Source: Candidatus Zipacnadia bacterium (GTDB taxonomy: Bacteria > Armatimonadota > Zipacnadia > Zipacnadales > Zipacnadaceae). Taken from it: a DNA stretch of 45,153 bases. Where the stretch lies: positions 1 to 45,153 of the forward strand of contig JALGTU010000004.1 of NCBI GenBank assembly GCA_029821195.1, given 5' to 3'. Shown one piece after another: positions 13,542 to 43,977 of the stretch (the stretch's first letter is position 1; each line of letters opens with the position of its first letter). The notes under the pieces are model-generated. The model saw only the letters and a program-made list of their open reading frames with translations, did no database searches and was not told the DNA's origin. The position numbers and the translations under genes were made by a program.

Positions 13542-13690
13542 ACGATTGCTCCCGGCTTATGCTGGGCGGAAGGTAGCACAACCGCCCGGGGCCGTCAAGT
13601 GCCCCACGAAGGAGATTTACCCGGCGCCAGCGAATTATATTTTCGCGTGTGGTGCACACACATCGTCTGATAGACGAGGAGGGAGATACG

Positions 13691-14713
13691 ATGATCCGCA
13701 TTGGCGTAGTAGGCATGGGGTTTATGGGCCAGCAGCATTTCTCCATCTACGAGGGCATGGATAATGTTGAGGTAGTAGCGGTATGCGACAAGAACCCCAC
13801 CAAGGTCGCCGAAGCGGCTCCCAGCGTCGGCGGCAACATCGGCGAGGCCACCGAACTGGACCTCTCCGCGCAGGCCCGGTACGTCTGTTTGGAGGACATG
13901 CTTGAAAAAGAGGAGCTTGACTGCGTGGACGTCTGTGTGCCGACGTACCTGCACGCGGAGATGACAGTGGCGGCGCTCGAGGCCGGCTGCCACACCATCA
14001 GCGAGAAGCCGATGGGCCGCAGCCTGGAGGATTGTGACCGGATGATCGCGGCGGCCGAGGCCGCCGGTCGGATGCTGTTCATCGCCCAGTGCGTCCGCTT
14101 CTGGCCGGAGTACGAACTGCTGGCGGATATGATCAGCAGGGGCGGGCTGGGTCGGCTGGCATCAGTGAAGTTCACCCGCCAGTCACCGCCAGCGACCTGG
14201 GCCGAGGACGGCTGGCTCCTTGATCCCAGGCTTAGCGGCGGGGCGATGCTCGACCTCCACATCCATGACGTTGATTTCATTCTGTCCGTGTTCGGAAAGC
14301 CGTCCGCCGTGCTCGCCCGCGCCAGCAATCTTTTCAGCACTGGCGAGAAGGTGGATCACATCATCACCAGCTACCTGTACGACGACTTCATCTGCGTGGC
14401 CGAAGGCGGCTGGGCGATGCCGGGCGCGTTTCCCTTCGAGATGGGCTTCCAGGCACTCGGCGAGCAGGGCCTGCTGGATTTCTCGCTCGCCAACGACCCG
14501 ATGCTCACTTTTTACCCGAGCGACGGTGAGCCGTACACACCCGAGGTCGCCGCCGGCACCGGCTACGAACGGGAACTGGCCTACTTCGTGCAGTGTATGG
14601 AGAACGACCAGCCACCCGAGCGCGTTACCCCGCAATCGGCGCGCGAGTCGGTGCAGGTGATAATGGCCGAGCAGCAGTCCGCCGAGACCGGCGAAGTCGT
14701 CCAGCTGGACTAG
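13691..14713 (+). CDS. Gfo/Idh/MocA family oxidoreductase
   Basis: MIRIGVVGMGFMGQQHFSIYEGMDNVEVVAVCDKNP; CVDVCVPTYLHAEMTVAALEAGCHTISEKPM; SD GGAGGGAG. Confidence 0.93.
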   Translation: MIRIGVVGMGFMGQQHFSIYEGMDNVEVVAVCDKNPTKVAEAAPSVGGNIGEATELDLSAQARYVCLEDMLEKEELDCVDVCVPTYLHAEMTVAALEAGCHTISEKPMGRSLEDCDRMIAAAEAAGRMLFIAQCVRFWPEYELLADMISRGGLGRLASVKFTRQSPPATWAEDGWLLDPRLSGGAMLDLHIHDVDFILSVFGKPSAVLARASNLFSTGEKVDHIITSYLYDDFICVAEGGWAMPGAFPFEMGFQALGEQGLLDFSLANDPMLTFYPSDGEPYTPEVAAGTGYERELAYFVQCMENDQPPERVTPQSARESVQVIMAEQQSAETGEVVQLD

Positions 14714-14935
14714 CCCGGATTATTCATGAAGACAAAAGGGATGAGCGTTCGAAAGACGTGCAGGTGTCCCTCAAAAGGCATTGACGGCAGTTCACAGTTC
14801 CTTGCGAGCAGCGAGACGATGCAACTATCAACTGCATTAGTCAACTTTCAAAGTTTTTGCCGGAAGGGTGTGGGAAACCGGCTTTTTTTGCTTAAAAAGC
14901 GGGTTTCCCACAAGCCGTTCATGAATAATCTGGAC
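14713..14935 (+). mobile_element. MITE-like element copy A (223 bp), TA-flanked, ~18 bp TIRs
   Basis: TA|GCCCGGATTATTCATGAA...TTCATGAATAATCTGGAC|TA; right ~96 bp ~94% identical to copy B; imperfect hairpin 14870-14911. Confidence 0.85.
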
Positions 14936-14965
14936 TAGACCAATATCTTCAGGAGGGAATGAGTC

Positions 14966-15835
14966 ATGCGCAAGAGTATAAGTGAGTGGTCGTTCCCCGC
15001 CGATATGCAGTTGAACGAGCGGATGGTCCTGGCCAAGGAGGCCGGCTTTGAGGGCATCGAGGTCGCGCTGACTGAGGACACCGATGGCTCCCAGCACAGC
15101 CTGGGCCTGCTGTGTCTGGATTCCTACGAGGAGGATGCGCCCCGGATCGTCGGGGCCGCCCGGCGCGCCGGAATTGAGATCTCGGGCGTCGCCACCGGCC
15201 TGTACTGGTCGTACTCCCTGACCGCCGACGACCCCGAAGAGCGCGCCAAGGCGATGGACGTCACCCGGGTACTCCTGCGCTCGGCCCACATGGTGGGCGT
15301 GGACGGCGTGTTGGTTATCCCCGGTAACGTCCACGCTACCTTCATCGCCGGCTGCCCCGTCGTGCCCTATGAAGTAGCCTACGCCCGGGCGCTGGTCGCT
15401 ATGCGGGAGACGGCGCCGCTGGCCGAGGAACTGGAAGTCTCGATGGGCCTGGAGTACGTCTGGAATATGTTCCTGCTCAGCCCCCTGGAGATGCTCCGGT
15501 TCATCGAGGAGGTCGGCAGCGAGCACGTCGGCTTCTGGATGGATGTCGGCAATATGATGCCCACCGGCTTCCCCGAGCAGTGGATCCGCCTGCTGGGTGA
15601 GCACCTCGTCCGGGTCCATTTCAAGGACTTCAAGCGCAGCGTGGGGACCATTGAGGGCTTCTGCGACCTGCTCGAGGGTGACGTCAACTGGCCGGCGGTC
15701 ATGGACGCGTTCGCGGAGGTCGGCTACGACGGCTGGGTGGCCGCCGAGATGATGCCGCCGTACCAGCACGCCCCCGAAGAGCTAGTTTTCGCCACCTCCC
15801 GCGCGATGGACCGGATATTGGCGATGGCGCCGTAG
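14966..15835 (+). CDS. Sugar phosphate isomerase/epimerase family (TIM barrel)
   Basis: MVLAKEAGFEGIEVALTED; VGFWMDVGNMMPTGFPEQWIRLLGEHLVRVHFKDFK; GWVAAEMMPP; SD GGAGG. Confidence 0.92.
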   Translation: MRKSISEWSFPADMQLNERMVLAKEAGFEGIEVALTEDTDGSQHSLGLLCLDSYEEDAPRIVGAARRAGIEISGVATGLYWSYSLTADDPEERAKAMDVTRVLLRSAHMVGVDGVLVIPGNVHATFIAGCPVVPYEVAYARALVAMRETAPLAEELEVSMGLEYVWNMFLLSPLEMLRFIEEVGSEHVGFWMDVGNMMPTGFPEQWIRLLGEHLVRVHFKDFKRSVGTIEGFCDLLEGDVNWPAVMDAFAEVGYDGWVAAEMMPPYQHAPEELVFATSRAMDRILAMAP

Positions 15836-15883
15836 TCGCAGAAAGGCCTGAGGGTGGGTGTAGCCAGCCTGCAGACCTCTGGC

Positions 15884-15941
15884 GCTGTGGGAGGGCCACC
15901 CTTGGCCCGACCATCGTCGTGGCAAGAATGCCACTCCTACC
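15884..15941. repeat. Hairpin repeats GTGGGAGGGCCACCCTTGGCCC and GTAGGAG-TGGCA-TTCT-TGCCA-CGAC
   Basis: Inverted repeats read directly; the second has compensatory stem changes versus other family members. Confidence 0.7.
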
Positions 15942-15958
15942 ACATAGAGGAAGGACGA

Positions 15959-16681
15959 ATGCCCACCATTCGCCTTAACAAGTTTCTGGCCGATGCCGGA
16001 ATATGCTCGCGGCGGAAAGCTGACGAGCATATTTCGTCGGGCGATGTCTACGTCAACGGCGAGCGGGCCACGTTGGGGATGAAGATTGACCCGGACAAGG
16101 ACGACGTCGTCTTTCGCCGCACGCCGGTTAGGCGACGCGCGGAGACACTTGTCTACTACGCCCTGTATAAGCCCAAAGGCGTGGTGTCAACGGCTGCCGA
16201 CGAGAAAGGGCGCACCACGGTCACCGACCTCGTCCCCCAACGACCCCGCGTTTACCCGGTCGGGCGGCTCGACCTGACCTCGGAAGGCCTCATCCTGCTG
16301 ACCAACGACGGCGAGCTGACCCACCAGCTCATGCACCCCAGCTTCGGGCACGAGAAGGAGTACGAAGTGGTGGTGCAGATTGCGGAGGGGATCAGCCCAA
16401 GAGAAGTCAAGCGAAGCTTCGAGGCAGGCTTGCAGATCGAAGGGAAGCTAATGCAGGCTGACCGGGTCGCGCTGCTGCATCGGAGTCCCAAGCGCGCCGA
16501 CATAGTGACTCTGCGGATGGTACTGCACACCGGCTACAATCGCCAGATCCGCCGCATGTGCGAAGCGCTGGGCCTGACCATCATCAACCTGCGTCGCATG
16601 AGAATCGGCAAGCTTGAGCTGAGCAAGCTTGCTCTGAAGCCGGGGAAATATCGCCGGGTCGAGAAAAGCGACATTGTCTAA
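15959..16681 (+). CDS. rluB: Pseudouridine synthase, RsuA/RluB family
   Basis: S4 domain MPTIRLNKFLADAGICSRRKADEHISSGDVYVNG; VYPVGRLDLTSEGLILLTNDGELTHQLMHP; GYNRQIRRMCEALG; SD AGGAAGG. Confidence 0.9.
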   Translation: MPTIRLNKFLADAGICSRRKADEHISSGDVYVNGERATLGMKIDPDKDDVVFRRTPVRRRAETLVYYALYKPKGVVSTAADEKGRTTVTDLVPQRPRVYPVGRLDLTSEGLILLTNDGELTHQLMHPSFGHEKEYEVVVQIAEGISPREVKRSFEAGLQIEGKLMQADRVALLHRSPKRADIVTLRMVLHTGYNRQIRRMCEALGLTIINLRRMRIGKLELSKLALKPGKYRRVEKSDIV

Positions 16682-16902
16682 TCCGGATAATTCATGAACG
16701 GCTTGTGGGAAACCCGCTTTTTAGGCAAAAAAAGCCGGTTTCCCACACCCTTCCGGCAAAAACTTGGAAAGTTGAGCAACGCCCGCGACAATTGCGTCGG
16801 GGCGTTGTTCACAGGAAACAGTGAATTGACGTGACGGGCTTCGACGGCTACTGCCACGCCTCCGACGCGCTCACTGCATCTATCTTCATGAATAATCCGG
16901 GC
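16681..16902 (-). mobile_element. MITE-like element copy B (222 bp), inverted relative to copy A, TA-flanked
   Basis: TA|ATCCGGATAATTCATGAA...TTCATGAATAATCCGGGC|TA; hairpin 16705-16746; first base completes the rluB TAA. Confidence 0.85.
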
Positions 16903-16925
16903 TAATCGTCCCGCGCCACACTCGC

Positions 16926-22989: not shown

Positions 22990-23796
22990 ATGGCAAGTAG
23001 ACGCACAGGATTCACCCTGATAGAATTGCTGGTGGTGATAGCGATCATCGCTATCCTGGCGGCGATTCTGTTCCCCGTTTTCGCCCGGGCCAAGGCCAAG
23101 GCCCAGGAGACGCAGTGCCTATCCAACGTCAAGCAGTTGGCCACGGCGGTTCTGACCTATGCCTCGGACTATGACAGCTCGCTGCCGTGGGTGATGTACG
23201 GCTCATCCAGTGACATAGGCAATATCACCCACGCCTGGGTAGTGCTGAGGCCGTATTTCAAGACGACCGACATCCTTCAGTGCCCCACCGCACCCGACGC
23301 CATCCCCTTTGGCGACCTGACCGACGTTAGCTGGCTCTCCAGCAGCTACTCGCTCAACGGAGCATGGCTGGGCGACATGTATAACTTCAGCACCTCCTGT
23401 CGCCCCGCCAAGGAAGCCCGGGGCTACTGCAAATTCGGTTGGCACATCAGCGGCGTGGGCGGCGATCCCTGGCCGACCGGCTCGTCCCTGTACGGAACGC
23501 AGCTTCTGGACAAGTGTGACGATCCGTCGGGGCAATACATGCTGTGGGACGCCGAGATGGACGCCAGTGGCTGCACCGGCGCGGTTACCAGCATCGGGGA
23601 CCTTCAAGCCCATTACAGCTGCGGTTCAAACAGGCTGGCCAACCTGGGCGGCAACAGTTGTGCCACCATCAAGCCGGTACTGCGCCACAACAACGGCCTG
23701 AATGTGGCCTTCTTCGATGGCCACGCCAAGCGCCAGAGTAAGGCGGAAACCACCGCCTGGGCGCCGTCAGCGAGTACAAGCTGGCCCTGGCCGTAG
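22990..23796 (+). CDS. Pseudopilin A (prepilin N-terminus, DGHA C-terminus)
   Basis: [72 protein letters not shown]. Confidence 0.95.
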   Translation: MASRRTGFTLIELLVVIAIIAILAAILFPVFARAKAKAQETQCLSNVKQLATAVLTYASDYDSSLPWVMYGSSSDIGNITHAWVVLRPYFKTTDILQCPTAPDAIPFGDLTDVSWLSSSYSLNGAWLGDMYNFSTSCRPAKEARGYCKFGWHISGVGGDPWPTGSSLYGTQLLDKCDDPSGQYMLWDAEMDASGCTGAVTSIGDLQAHYSCGSNRLANLGGNSCATIKPVLRHNNGLNVAFFDGHAKRQSKAETTAWAPSASTSWPWP

Positions 23797-23827
23797 CCCA
23801 AAATTACCTCGAGAGGAGTCGATGATA

Positions 23828-24637
23828 ATGCTTACCAAGCGCAAGGGTTTCACCCTGATTGAATTGCTGGTGGTGATAGCGATCATCGCTATCCTGGCAG
23901 CCATTCTGTTCCCCGTCTTCGCCCGGGCGCGCCAGAAGGCCTATGAGACCCAGTGCCTGAGCCAAGTGAAGAACCTATGCACCGCCTTCAAGGTCTACAC
24001 TGCTGACTACTTCGGGTGGTTCCCACACAGGCGGGATTGGGCCTACAACAACAACGGTAGTCTGAGCGGGGACCTCAAGCCGTACATCAATGAGTGGCAC
24101 ATGATCAACTGCCCGGGTCTGGCCCAGTTTGGCGGGGGCTACAAGGCATGGGGCTCGGGCTACCGCGAGAACAGCTACGCGTACAACATGCGGTACTCCG
24201 ACCACGGCAGCAGCCCCTACAAGGGCGGCCTGACACTCCAGGCCTATTGCAGCAATTGGAGTGATCCCGGCCCGATGCGTTACTTCCCCGCTAACGAGGC
24301 CTGGCTTGCAGATCCTAGCGGCACGATCCTGCTGCTCGAGGTCTCCGCTAGCACATCCGGTAGCTGGCAGAACTGGGGCGGGCCATGCTACCACAATCAC
24401 ACCACCGGGGCTGTCATGAGCTCCGGCCGCGGTCGTCACAATTGGCGCCACAACAGCGGGATGAACATCGGCTTTACCGACGGCCACGCCCAGTGGGTCA
24501 AGCAGGGCACAGACGGCGTCGAGTTCAGTGATGGCGACTACGATGCCAAGGTCGCAGACGGCACCAACCTCCACGACCTGGGCAACGGCAAGGACATCTA
24601 CGTTCGCGTCAACTTCGACCCCGACCAATGCGACTAG
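23828..24637 (+). CDS. Pseudopilin B (prepilin N-terminus, DGHA C-terminus)
   Basis: [64 protein letters not shown] 9 nt upstream. Confidence 0.95.
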   Translation: MLTKRKGFTLIELLVVIAIIAILAAILFPVFARARQKAYETQCLSQVKNLCTAFKVYTADYFGWFPHRRDWAYNNNGSLSGDLKPYINEWHMINCPGLAQFGGGYKAWGSGYRENSYAYNMRYSDHGSSPYKGGLTLQAYCSNWSDPGPMRYFPANEAWLADPSGTILLLEVSASTSGSWQNWGGPCYHNHTTGAVMSSGRGRHNWRHNSGMNIGFTDGHAQWVKQGTDGVEFSDGDYDAKVADGTNLHDLGNGKDIYVRVNFDPDQCD

Positions 24638-24670
24638 GCCGGCCCGTTTGTACTCAGAACCAATAGCCAT

Positions 24671-24703
24671 AAAGGGGAAGGCCAGATGGCCTTCCCCTTT
24701 TTT
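24671..24703 (+). terminator. Rho-independent terminator AAAGGGGAAGGCC-AGAT-GGCCTTCCCCTTT-TTT
   Basis: 13 bp perfect stem then T run; core identical to 26738-26767. Confidence 0.93.
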
Positions 24704-24715
24704 CTGCCTCGGTAC

Positions 24716-24734
24716 GACAGGCGTCCCGCCTGTC
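24716..24734. repeat. Hairpin repeat GACAGGCG-TCC-CGCCTGTC
   Basis: Perfect stem; related copies at 279-297, 29450-29468, 30817-30835. Confidence 0.75.
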
Positions 24735-24809
24735 GCCCTCTCTCGTCGGCCCGATGACAAGGCGCAGGTAATATTCTGCTCGCTTGCGAAGAATAGGCAC
24801 CACAAACGG

Positions 24810-24838
24810 TTGACAGCCCGGTCATTTTGTGGTACCCT
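24810..24838 (+). promoter_or_regulatory. Putative promoter TTGACA-17-TACCCT for the second pilin unit
   Basis: Exact -35 and same geometry as 22827; weak -10. Confidence 0.5.
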
Positions 24839-24842
24839 GTAC

Positions 24843-24971
24843 CCGCTGAGTAGGCACGTCATCTCGAGGCCCGTGCAAATCAGGGAGGTGGTGACCGCCA
24901 CTACCGGTCGGACTACAACTGGGTCAGATCCATATAGGTACGTACGCGAAGTACTAAGGAGTGAGAATCTG
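24843..24971 (+). promoter_or_regulatory. Pseudopilin 5' leader 2 (CAGGGAGGTGGTGACC at 24881-24896)
   Basis: Matches leader 1 in motif, spacing and preceding small hairpin. Confidence 0.55.
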
Positions 24972-25802
24972 ATGACAAGTAGACGCAGAGGTTTTACCCT
25001 GATAGAATTGTTGGTGGTGATAGCGATCATTGCTATCCTGGCAGCGATTCTGTTCCCCGTTTTCGCCCGCGCCAAGGCGAAGGCAATGGAGACCCAGTGC
25101 CTGTCCAACGTCAAGCAGTTGGCCACGGCCATCCTGACGTATACCTCCGATTACGACCAGGCGTTACCCTATTTCGCCTATGGCAACTACAGCGACAGCA
25201 ACGAAGACGACATCGTTTACGTCTGGAATGCGGTGGCCCCCTATTTCAAGAGCGCGGATATTCTCCAGTGCCCCGCCGCCCCCGACGCGCTGCCCTTTGA
25301 CGAGATCCCGGTGGTGAACTTCCTGTCGAGCAGCTATTCCGTCTTCGCGCCTCTGTTCGGCAAGAACGACCTCTTCCCCACACCGAATTGGGACGCCAAG
25401 AGCGCACAAGGCCACTGCCGGTTCTGGTGGGCGATCCGAAGCGTCGGCGGCGACCCATGGGGCCCGTGCACGATATGGCCCCCCGGCGCTAACGACATTG
25501 ACATGTGCCCTGACCCCTCGACTGTTTACATGGTTTGGGACGCCGAGCAGGCCATCTCCACCGACAGCGCCTGCGACAGCTTCTCCTGGGGTAGCGCCAA
25601 CGTCTTCGAGCTTGACGTCCGCTACAGTGGCAGCGAGCATAGGTGGAAGAGCAAGAGTACCTCCGGCGTCAGTTGCGTGGACATCACGCCGGTGCTGCGC
25701 CACAACAACGGGATGAACGTCTCCTTCCTGGATGGGCACGCCAAGCGCCAGAGCCGCCGCGAGACTGAAGTGGTCATGGGCTGGGACTGGGACAACTACT
25801 GA
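24972..25802 (+). CDS. Pseudopilin A' (paralog of 22990 gene)
   Basis: [89 protein letters not shown] track start too far upstream. Confidence 0.95.
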   Translation: MTSRRRGFTLIELLVVIAIIAILAAILFPVFARAKAKAMETQCLSNVKQLATAILTYTSDYDQALPYFAYGNYSDSNEDDIVYVWNAVAPYFKSADILQCPAAPDALPFDEIPVVNFLSSSYSVFAPLFGKNDLFPTPNWDAKSAQGHCRFWWAIRSVGGDPWGPCTIWPPGANDIDMCPDPSTVYMVWDAEQAISTDSACDSFSWGSANVFELDVRYSGSEHRWKSKSTSGVSCVDITPVLRHNNGMNVSFLDGHAKRQSRRETEVVMGWDWDNY

Positions 25803-25835
25803 CGATAACACTCTCACAGATAGGAGTTGATGATA

Positions 25836-26702
25836 ATGATAGCTAGCCGCAAAGGCTTCACTTTGATCGAGCTGCTGGTGGTGATAGCCATTATCGCCAT
25901 CCTGGCAGCTATACTCTTCCCGGTCTTCGCCCGGGCCCGGGCCAAGGCCAAGCAGACCCAGTGCCTGAGTAATATCAAGAACGTCGCCATGGCCTACAAG
26001 ATCTACACCAGTGACTGGTTCGCCTACTACCCGCATGATGTCGAGAACGTTCTATACTTCTATAGTACCAATCGTAGTGATCCCCCCAAGGGGCTACTGG
26101 CGACCTACGTCACCAGCAGCGACATCATGTTCTGCCCGCTGCTGAAACAGGCCAAACAAGTCAAGACACTGGTGAACGGTGGCTACTTGCCCAACTGGAG
26201 CCGCTACCGGGAGAGTGGGTACTCCTACAACGGGGTATTCTACAACAGTACCTACGGCGGCGACAAAGACGGCTGCGCCGACTTCTACGGTGGTTTGGCG
26301 CTCAAGGTAGATTGCGGCTCCGGCCTGAAGTACATCCCCGCCAGCGAAAGCTGGCTGGAGAGCCCGGGCAACACCGTCCTGCTGGTCGAGTCGTTTTCGA
26401 ACACCAGCAACATGAGGTACGCCGGCGGCCAGGCCTGGATGTGCCACACCGGGAACTCCAACTACAAGCGCAGTGGCCGCCAGTGCGGCTACATTTGGGC
26501 GAACCACAACAACGGCGCAAACTACGCGTTCTGCGACGGCCACGCCCGCTGGGTGATGAACGGCACCGAGGGCGCAGTGATCAGCAACTGGAGCACCTGG
26601 GAGGCCACCAGCCCGCTCGAGGACAACTGGTGGGACATCGGGCCCAACAGCAAGGAGCTGTGCGAGCGGGTGACCTGGCTGAGCGATTGCGCCTGCCCGT
26701 AG
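25836..26702 (+). CDS. Pseudopilin B' (paralog of 23828 gene)
   Basis: [78 protein letters not shown] 9 nt upstream. Confidence 0.95.
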
Positions 26703-43005: not shown

Positions 43006-43977
43006 TTGAACCTGCCTCGACGAGTCGGCAAGCGACGAAAGAAGCAGCAAAAGCAGGAATTCTGGCTTAGGCTGAGCGACTACCAATACCCCGGGGAGAA
43101 GCAGCATTACTGGATATCAGTGGGAGTAGTACTATTGGTGGCTTTCTGGATTGCTGGGCTGGTGTGGTGGCTCGACCGATTCAACACCTGGACCTACCAG
43201 CTCGCCTACATTCCCGGCTGGGTGCTGCTCTCCGCACCGCTGGTCAACTACCTCGCGGCCCGACCGCGACGCCAGCAACTCAAGAAGCTCGGCCACCACG
43301 CCAGGGTCTGGGGCAACAACTACCCCCAATATCACGCCGCGCTTACACGGCTGAGTAAGCTGGCCTGCCTGCGCCGAGTCCCGGAGATGTATATAGTTGA
43401 TGAGGAAGCGCCCTATCTCTACAGCCTGCCCGACCGAGCCGGGACGATCATTGTCACCAAGGCGCTGACCGAAGTGCTCGAGCTCGACGAGTTTGAGACG
43501 CTCGTCGCCCACGAACTGGGGCACATCAAGTCACACCACCTGCGCCTGGAGTTGGCGATGACTTACGTGGATAACGTCAACCCGACGCTCAAGTTCCTCT
43601 TCGGCCCCATCACCATCTGGCGGATGCTAATGGGCTCCTGGCGCGACGTCATCGAGTATACCGCCGACCGCGTAGCCCTGCTCATCACCCAGAAGCCGGT
43701 AGCCCTGATGCGGGCGATCATTAAGTCCGCCGCCGCCGCTGATGAGCAGACCGATCTGACGCAAGAAGAGATTGAGGCGTACCTCCAGCAATCTGGGCAG
43801 GTCGGCACCGACGCGGCCGAGATCGAGCGCTATTTCAAGATCAGCGAGTTCATCAATAATCAGCCCAATATGCACGAACGGCTCGAGGAAATTGGCCGGT
43901 TCCTCATTAGTGAGGAGGGCAAAGCGGCCTTCGAAAAGATAGGGCACATCCTCCAGGAAGTCACCCAGCGAGCGTAG
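43006..43977 (+). CDS. M48 family zinc metallopeptidase, membrane-anchored
   Basis: TLVAHELGHIKSHH (HEXXH); two hydrophobic N-terminal segments; EYTADRVALL; TTG start. Confidence 0.9.
   Translation: MNLPRRVGKRRKKQQKQEFWLRLSDYQYPGEKQHYWISVGVVLLVAFWIAGLVWWLDRFNTWTYQLAYIPGWVLLSAPLVNYLAARPRRQQLKKLGHHARVWGNNYPQYHAALTRLSKLACLRRVPEMYIVDEEAPYLYSLPDRAGTIIVTKALTEVLELDEFETLVAHELGHIKSHHLRLELAMTYVDNVNPTLKFLFGPITIWRMLMGSWRDVIEYTADRVALLITQKPVALMRAIIKSAAAADEQTDLTQEEIEAYLQQSGQVGTDAAEIERYFKISEFINNQPNMHERLEEIGRFLISEEGKAAFEKIGHILQEVTQRA

Follow-up and report, generated by a model that had tools for sequence, protein, structure and literature searches.

Two short elements in the 45,153-nt stretch of DNA analysed here (the window) are insertions of a non-autonomous IS1380-type MITE, which targets four-base YTAR sites, stop codons among them, and which carries a hairpin core that has probably been retained behind genes as a transcription terminator. 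This explanation is considered likely as a whole, its less direct parts being the mobilisation of the MITEs in trans, the terminator activity of the core and its selective retention. A mobile element may in this way spread terminator-like 3′ ends over a whole lineage, a process for which intact, decayed and shared copies, as well as empty sites, are available.

The source genome (G000; 3.0 Mb in 237 contigs) belongs to the phylum Armatimonadota, near Ca. Zipacnadia, Zipacnadia being a class within this phylum (PMC10290634). It was compared, among others, with G003, a sister species of the same genus whose pseudouridine synthase is 90% identical. Copy numbers in G000 derive from pattern and model searches; TIRs were searched with the pattern CCGGATTATTCATGAA, allowing up to two mismatches, with the reversed pattern as a control. 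The features discussed are collected in Table 1.

Table 1. Positions of the elements, their borders, the neighbouring genes and related features (window coordinates unless a locus or contig is named)
Feature	Position	Strand	Basis or remark
Copy A	14714-14934	+	221 bp, IS1380-type MITE
Copy A, TIR core CCGGATTATTCATGAA	14715-14730 and 14918-14933		
Copy A, left target-site duplication CTAG	14710-14713		sequence; same 4 bp at 14935-14938; family-wide pattern
Copy A, right target-site duplication CTAG	14935-14938		sequence
Copy A, conserved core	14844-14928	+	match to covariance model R1, E=4e-20
Copy A, large hairpin	14869-14912		inverted-repeat detection
Copy B	16682-16901	-	220 bp, IS1380-type MITE of a subfamily other than that of copy A
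Copy B, TIR core CCGGATTATTCATGAA	16683-16698 and 16885-16900		
Copy B, left target-site duplication CTAA	16678-16681		sequence
Copy B, right target-site duplication CTAA	16902-16905		sequence
Copy B, conserved core	16688-16772	-	covariance model; hairpin 16704-16747
Gfo/Idh/MocA oxidoreductase gene	13649-14713	+	PF01408, E=1e-26; gene caller
Xylose-isomerase-like TIM-barrel gene	14966-15835	+	PF01261
S4-domain pseudouridine synthase gene (RluB/RluF/RsuA type)	15959-16681	+	PF00849, PF01479
IS1380 transposase fragments in G000	C106:2954-3364 and C3:2420-2581		
Short IS1380-TIR element in G055	L129 1317-1404 (G055:C9)		TIR pairs at several further G055 places
Palindromic repeats nested in cores	L043 2005-2288; L108 6575 and 19299; L115 3722		

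The copies A and B form an inverted pair, whose arms (14775-14940 and 16676-16841) are 82% complementary. An earlier note, made from the window, had described two inverted elements, each directly past the stop of a gene, and the sequence, the inverted-arm match and the TIR matches all confirm them. Its coordinates located the pair but were one base out at each side, and the TA that it reported at all four ends does adjoin the elements, although this TA is the middle of a duplicated 4-bp CTAR. The target site of copy A includes the stop of the oxidoreductase gene (TAG, 14711-14713), and that of copy B includes the stop of the pseudouridine synthase gene (TAA, 16679-16681); copy B is reversed, so that its right end adjoins this stop. 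The latter gene had been named rluB; it does encode an S4-domain pseudouridine synthase and scores above the cut-off of TIGR00093, and may be RluB or RluF. The TIM-barrel gene begins 27 nt past the right duplication of copy A. An open frame runs in copy A from an ATG at 14741 through the right TIR to the duplicated TAG (14741-14938); a coding role was rejected because indels disrupt the frame in other copies, and the frame is probably due to chance. A lone TIR-like sequence, TTCATCAATAATC, lies at 43849-43868 of the window with no partner, and is possibly a decayed end.

The MITE-like character of the pair, also claimed in the earlier note, is borne out across the assembly. For the TIR core CCGGATTATTCATGAA, G000 yields 45 matches and the reversed control none, and the number found in the window was reached by none of 100 shuffles. 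These matches pair up into at least 30 TIR-bounded elements of three subfamilies, mostly about 218-221 bp long and with 216-220 bp between the TIRs in nearly all of them. Their common layout is CTAR, C plus TIR at one side, and TIR plus one base, CTAR at the other, the 4-bp flanks (YTAR) being identical on both sides in 17 of the 30. Empty sites are provided by G003, which keeps the order oxidoreductase, TIM-barrel gene and pseudouridine synthase while homologous sequence runs through both sites: that of copy A reads ..GACTAG|AT.., with the TIM-barrel gene directly after the oxidoreductase, and that of copy B reads ..GTTTAG|CC... Since the homologous flanks are continuous there, the window copies are insertions and not inherited UTRs. 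The elements are thus short, non-coding, TIR-bounded and multicopy, with target duplications and empty sites, as MITEs are.

The family of the transposase was established by a PF13701 search of related genomes, which revealed seven insertion sequences of about 1.5-1.7 kb with the same type of TIR (CCNGATTATTCATGAA), namely L127/L154, L148, L150-L153 and L157. Six of the seven are flanked by an identical CTAG on both sides, and the seventh by CTAA/CTAG. The 465-aa transposase of L127 scores 344 bits with NF033539, the NCBIfam equivalog for IS1380, the cut-off of which is 180. An autonomous relative with the same TIR, the existence of which had been suggested as a check on the pair, is therefore present in related genomes, but it belongs to IS1380 and is not IS630-like. 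With TIRs matching those of an autonomous element and the same duplication, the window copies qualify as IS1380-derived MITEs; the intact elements (NF033539/PF13701) are alike in kind as to TIR type and 4-bp CTAG/CTAA duplications, while the MITEs differ from them in being only about 220 bp long, in lacking a transposase and in holding a core that the intact elements do not have. The IS5 group also uses a YTAR-like target, and an origin from it was rejected on transposase family, since the intact elements sharing these ends encode IS1380 enzymes.

The MITEs are presumably mobilised in trans by a transposase of the IS1380 family. No intact IS1380 element, which an active family would be expected to have in the same genome although its definition does not strictly demand one, was found in the 237 contigs of G000, only two fragments of transposase genes, so the present mobiliser has been lost, is unassembled or lies elsewhere. 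Many broken IS1380 transposase fragments occur in G000, G003, G008, G010 and G011, as if after a burst, and G055, another member of the Armatimonadota, has a shorter element with the same IS1380 TIRs and about 80 bp between their borders.

Published duplications of the IS1380 family include one of 5 bp, that of IS1247 (PMC3281130), and the search of the open-access literature found no paper linking IS1380, CTAG and target duplication. IS1380 transposases serve as an outgroup to the eukaryotic piggyBac superfamily, whose target is TTAA, with CTAA and TTAG as rare variants (PMC10813416). The MITEs resemble piggyBac in duplicating a 4-bp target centred on TA, and differ from it in being bacterial and non-autonomous and in using CTAR rather than TTAA; by analogy, CTAR may be regarded as a natural variant of a target of the piggyBac kind. 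Small, non-coding, TIR-bounded elements moved in trans have likewise been described as MITEAba12 (PMC6382973) and among bacterial MITEs in general (PMC10969869). MITEAba12 shares the homogeneity of length, but without a predicted terminator (PMC6382973), and the review of bacterial MITEs is silent on IS1380-derived MITEs, stop codons and CTAG targets (PMC10969869).

The position of the elements at stop codons follows largely from their target. A gene stop lies exactly within the duplication in 13 of the 30 elements (five at the left end and eight at the right end), and no predicted gene is interrupted by any of the 30 elements or of the 151 core copies. Control YTAR sites of the same DNA comprise 27 gene stops, 77 intergenic sites and 306 sites inside genes. 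Stops are thus in clear excess against all YTAR sites (p=2e-8), and in a smaller one against those outside genes (43% vs 26%; binomial 0.03, Fisher 0.056). The stop-codon preference proposed from the two window copies holds to the extent that stops are over-represented; the special preference does not follow from so modest a difference. The simplest reading is that the hits on stops mostly reflect a CTAR target that contains a stop, together with the loss of copies that landed in genes, and a small extra preference for stop codons beyond motif and gene avoidance is possible. Since TAG and TAA are contained in YTAR, the element is able to insert at a stop codon; the duplication then restores the stop and leaves the protein intact. 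The proposal that the element supplies the third base of the stop has to be abandoned, as the stop belongs to the target and is duplicated whole. This clade of transposases inserts at CTAG/CTAA-like (YTAR) sites, duplicating the four bases, so that the stop codon is regenerated and the protein spared, and insertion beside a stop sets the hairpin core just downstream of the gene. A transposon can hit stop codons harmlessly by a simple rule, namely that its 4-bp target includes TAR and undergoes duplication at insertion.

A core of about 65 nt, AAAGTTTTTGCCGGARRGGTGYGGRRAACCGGCTTTTT..AAAAAGCGGGTTYYCCRC, is found in the right half of all subfamilies and is absent from the intact IS1380 elements. 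Among 20 copies of the main subfamily, collected by their TIRs and not by the core, private changes number 10 in the 62 sites of the core (0.16 per site) and 66 in the 113 sites of the left half (0.58 per site), that is, 3.6 times fewer in the core. The covariance model identified at least 73 cores in G000, 74 in G006, 56 in G004, 49 in G003, 19 in G011 and 16 in G036 (lower bounds, with up to 75 candidates scored per genome); the other genomes sampled had few cores or none, and Rfam has no match to the core up to E=1. Copies common to G003-G006 were recognised by matching right tails and flanks, and in at least four shared pairs (one of them G006/G036) the left 130 nt are at random level, against an identity of about 0.9-0.99 in the core. 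Most same-locus pairs between G000 and G004 or G006 have the look of independent insertions, several of them being without excess similarity. The hairpin of L005 (G000:C188) is the exact reverse complement of that of L004 (G000:C77), with CCGGC..GCGGG against CCCGC..GCCGG, as though it had been inverted in place.

The survey of positions covered 151 distinct cores. Measured from the end of the core model, the stops of genes that end towards the right end of the element show a sharp peak at a distance of 8-10 nt (39 of 86), which places the stop at the right end of the element. Where both TIRs are still recognisable, stops at the right and left ends are in the ratio 11:13; among decayed copies the ratio is 51:5 (Fisher 3e-5), left-end stops being scored less reliably in decayed copies of genomes other than G000; within G000 alone, the ratios are 10:9 in intact and 19:4 in decayed copies (p=0.05). 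Decayed copies thus lie mostly antisense, directly past a stop codon. Copies with the right end at a stop would be those retained while their TIRs and left halves decay, the likeliest reason being that the core serves as a transcription terminator or takes the place of one.

The structure of the core is consistent with this function. The strand of the element reads GCCGG...CCGGC followed by T5-T7, and the other strand GYGGR..CCCGC followed by T5; a GC-rich stem with a run of T, as expected of an intrinsic terminator, is therefore found on both strands and just after genes. In copy A, the plus strand reads GCCGG..CCGGC and then T7, and the minus strand GTGGG-AAA-CCCGC and then T5, with a terminator-like site at 14911-14899; in copy B, a terminator-like stem with T5 lies on the gene strand at 16705-16717. 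The two small stems overlap in one large hairpin, for which folding predicts -24 to -27 kcal/mol and in which compensatory changes are present. Its sole mismatch, G.G, recurs in 101 of 111 cores; a C on either side would ruin one of the small stems. The core may accordingly be described, from its sequence, as a putative compact bidirectional terminator 20-25 nt past a stop codon. At -5 to -7 kcal/mol the terminator stems are short, that of the gene strand is missing in one subfamily, and a terminator scan of the region gave 2 sites against a shuffle mean of 2.0, with no excess. The scarcity in divergent gaps is not significant (10 of 138 vs 33 of 252, p=0.09). About half of the intact copies lie just upstream of the start of a tandem gene, copy A being within a probable operon, which argues against strong termination everywhere. 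A comparable case is that of the SPRITE repeats of Streptococcus pneumoniae, which are terminator-like, dispersed and enriched near the 3′ ends of genes, and which have been suggested to be co-opted terminators (PMC3049150). SPRITEs have only AAAA/TTTT ends and possess neither an established target duplication nor a known mobiliser (PMC3049150), unlike the MITEs of G000, with their TIRs, duplication, empty sites and identified transposase family.

Three segments of the core covary in a manner that a hairpin does not predict. Segment 2 (GZYXAACCGGC) forms Watson-Crick pairs with segment 3 and has its mirror copy in segment 1 (GCCGGAXYZG); the positions X, Y and Z vary jointly in all three segments, with five main states (AAG, AGG, GGG, GAG and AAA). 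Segments 1 and 2 are identical in 94 of 107 scorable cores, whereas shuffling within genomes gives a mean of 49 and reaches 94 in none of 5000 trials; in a tree built without the X/Y/Z columns, segment 1 changes 23 times, and 20 of these changes share a branch with a change in segment 2, kinship being incompletely removed from both counts and the tree poorly resolved. Covariation through pairing of segment 1 with segment 3, either as a direct repeat or with a shift, was rejected, as Y follows its mirror partner, and not the direct-repeat one, in 11 of 11 inferred changes. Mirror symmetry is needed by a triple helix and not by a plain hairpin, so a plain terminator leaves the covariation unexplained. 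The X/Y/Z pattern is what a G.G-C/A.A-T triple requires (C+.G-C/U.A-U in RNA of the other strand). Two further features would agree with a triple helix: the T5 of segment 1, which is invariant and faces the T5-A5 stem, and the G.G mismatch, which is conserved and faces a conserved C. That the core is a three-stranded triple-helix element, spread by a transposon to the 3′ ends of bacterial mRNAs, is nevertheless put forward as an unlikely possibility. If true, MITEs would have been the carriers of a triple helix at the 3′ ends of bacterial mRNAs; the mirror-type covariation is in itself unusual and open to direct testing. Other palindromic repeats (CCGCCGTAGCTTTAGCGAAGGCGG; GTGGTGAGCTTGGTCGAACC) are nested inside some cores, between segments 1 and 2.

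Retention of the core as a probable terminator has to be weighed against a plainly selfish IS1380 MITE, whose positions at stops would result from CTAR and purging and whose core would be needed for transposition, with no function for the host. Such an account would suit the small excess of stops and the presence of the core in all subfamilies, and the three-way covariation could mirror a structure used in transposition. It is held to be somewhat unlikely, however, since intact IS1380 elements without a core indicate no general requirement for transposition, the core survives in copies with decayed TIRs and in cross-species copies whose left half cannot be aligned, and the bias towards a stop at the right end appears in decayed copies only. 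It is distinctly improbable that IS1380 MITEs, instead of spreading the core, captured an older terminator or regulatory repeat native to this lineage: cores without recognisable TIRs do occur in G036, G011 and G013, but the majority still have a right end resembling a TIR, with a YTAR where expected, and core-only copies fit decay.

The earlier note had assigned the pair to an IS630/Tc1-mariner-type MITE with a TA duplication and a specific preference for stop codons. TA does stand at every end of both window copies; however, the duplication comprises the 4 bp YTAR rather than the 2 bp TA, and stops are just modestly above the expectation for non-coding YTAR sites. As intact elements with the same ends and with CTAG/CTAA duplications encode IS1380 transposases, and not the DDE enzyme of that family, this assignment is wrong, and the reading is given very little weight. 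Vertically inherited 3′ UTRs, which copies common to several species might recall, are practically out of the question given dozens of dispersed copies, the target duplications and the G003 loci, where the empty sites sought in a relative were found for both insertions. A phage origin was dropped after no match was obtained in the phage collection searched, and so was an integron attC-like cassette array, considered for same-strand clusters in G004 and G006, because these clusters track the gene strand at the 3′ ends of genes.

The IS1380-type MITE is accompanied in the window by other repeats. Tandem paralogous genes with repeated 5′ parts occupy 22990-26702, two near-identical terminators (AGGGGAAGGCCAGATGGCCTTCCCCTTTTTT) lie at 24673 and 26737, and three families of short intergenic repeats are found, CGACAAGAATGTCGCTCCTACC at 175, 1102, 15917 and 33277, GGACAGGCGTCCCGCCTGTCC at 278, 24710, 29442 and 30809, and CCCTTCGACAGGCTCAGGAC at 326, 30734 and 30760.
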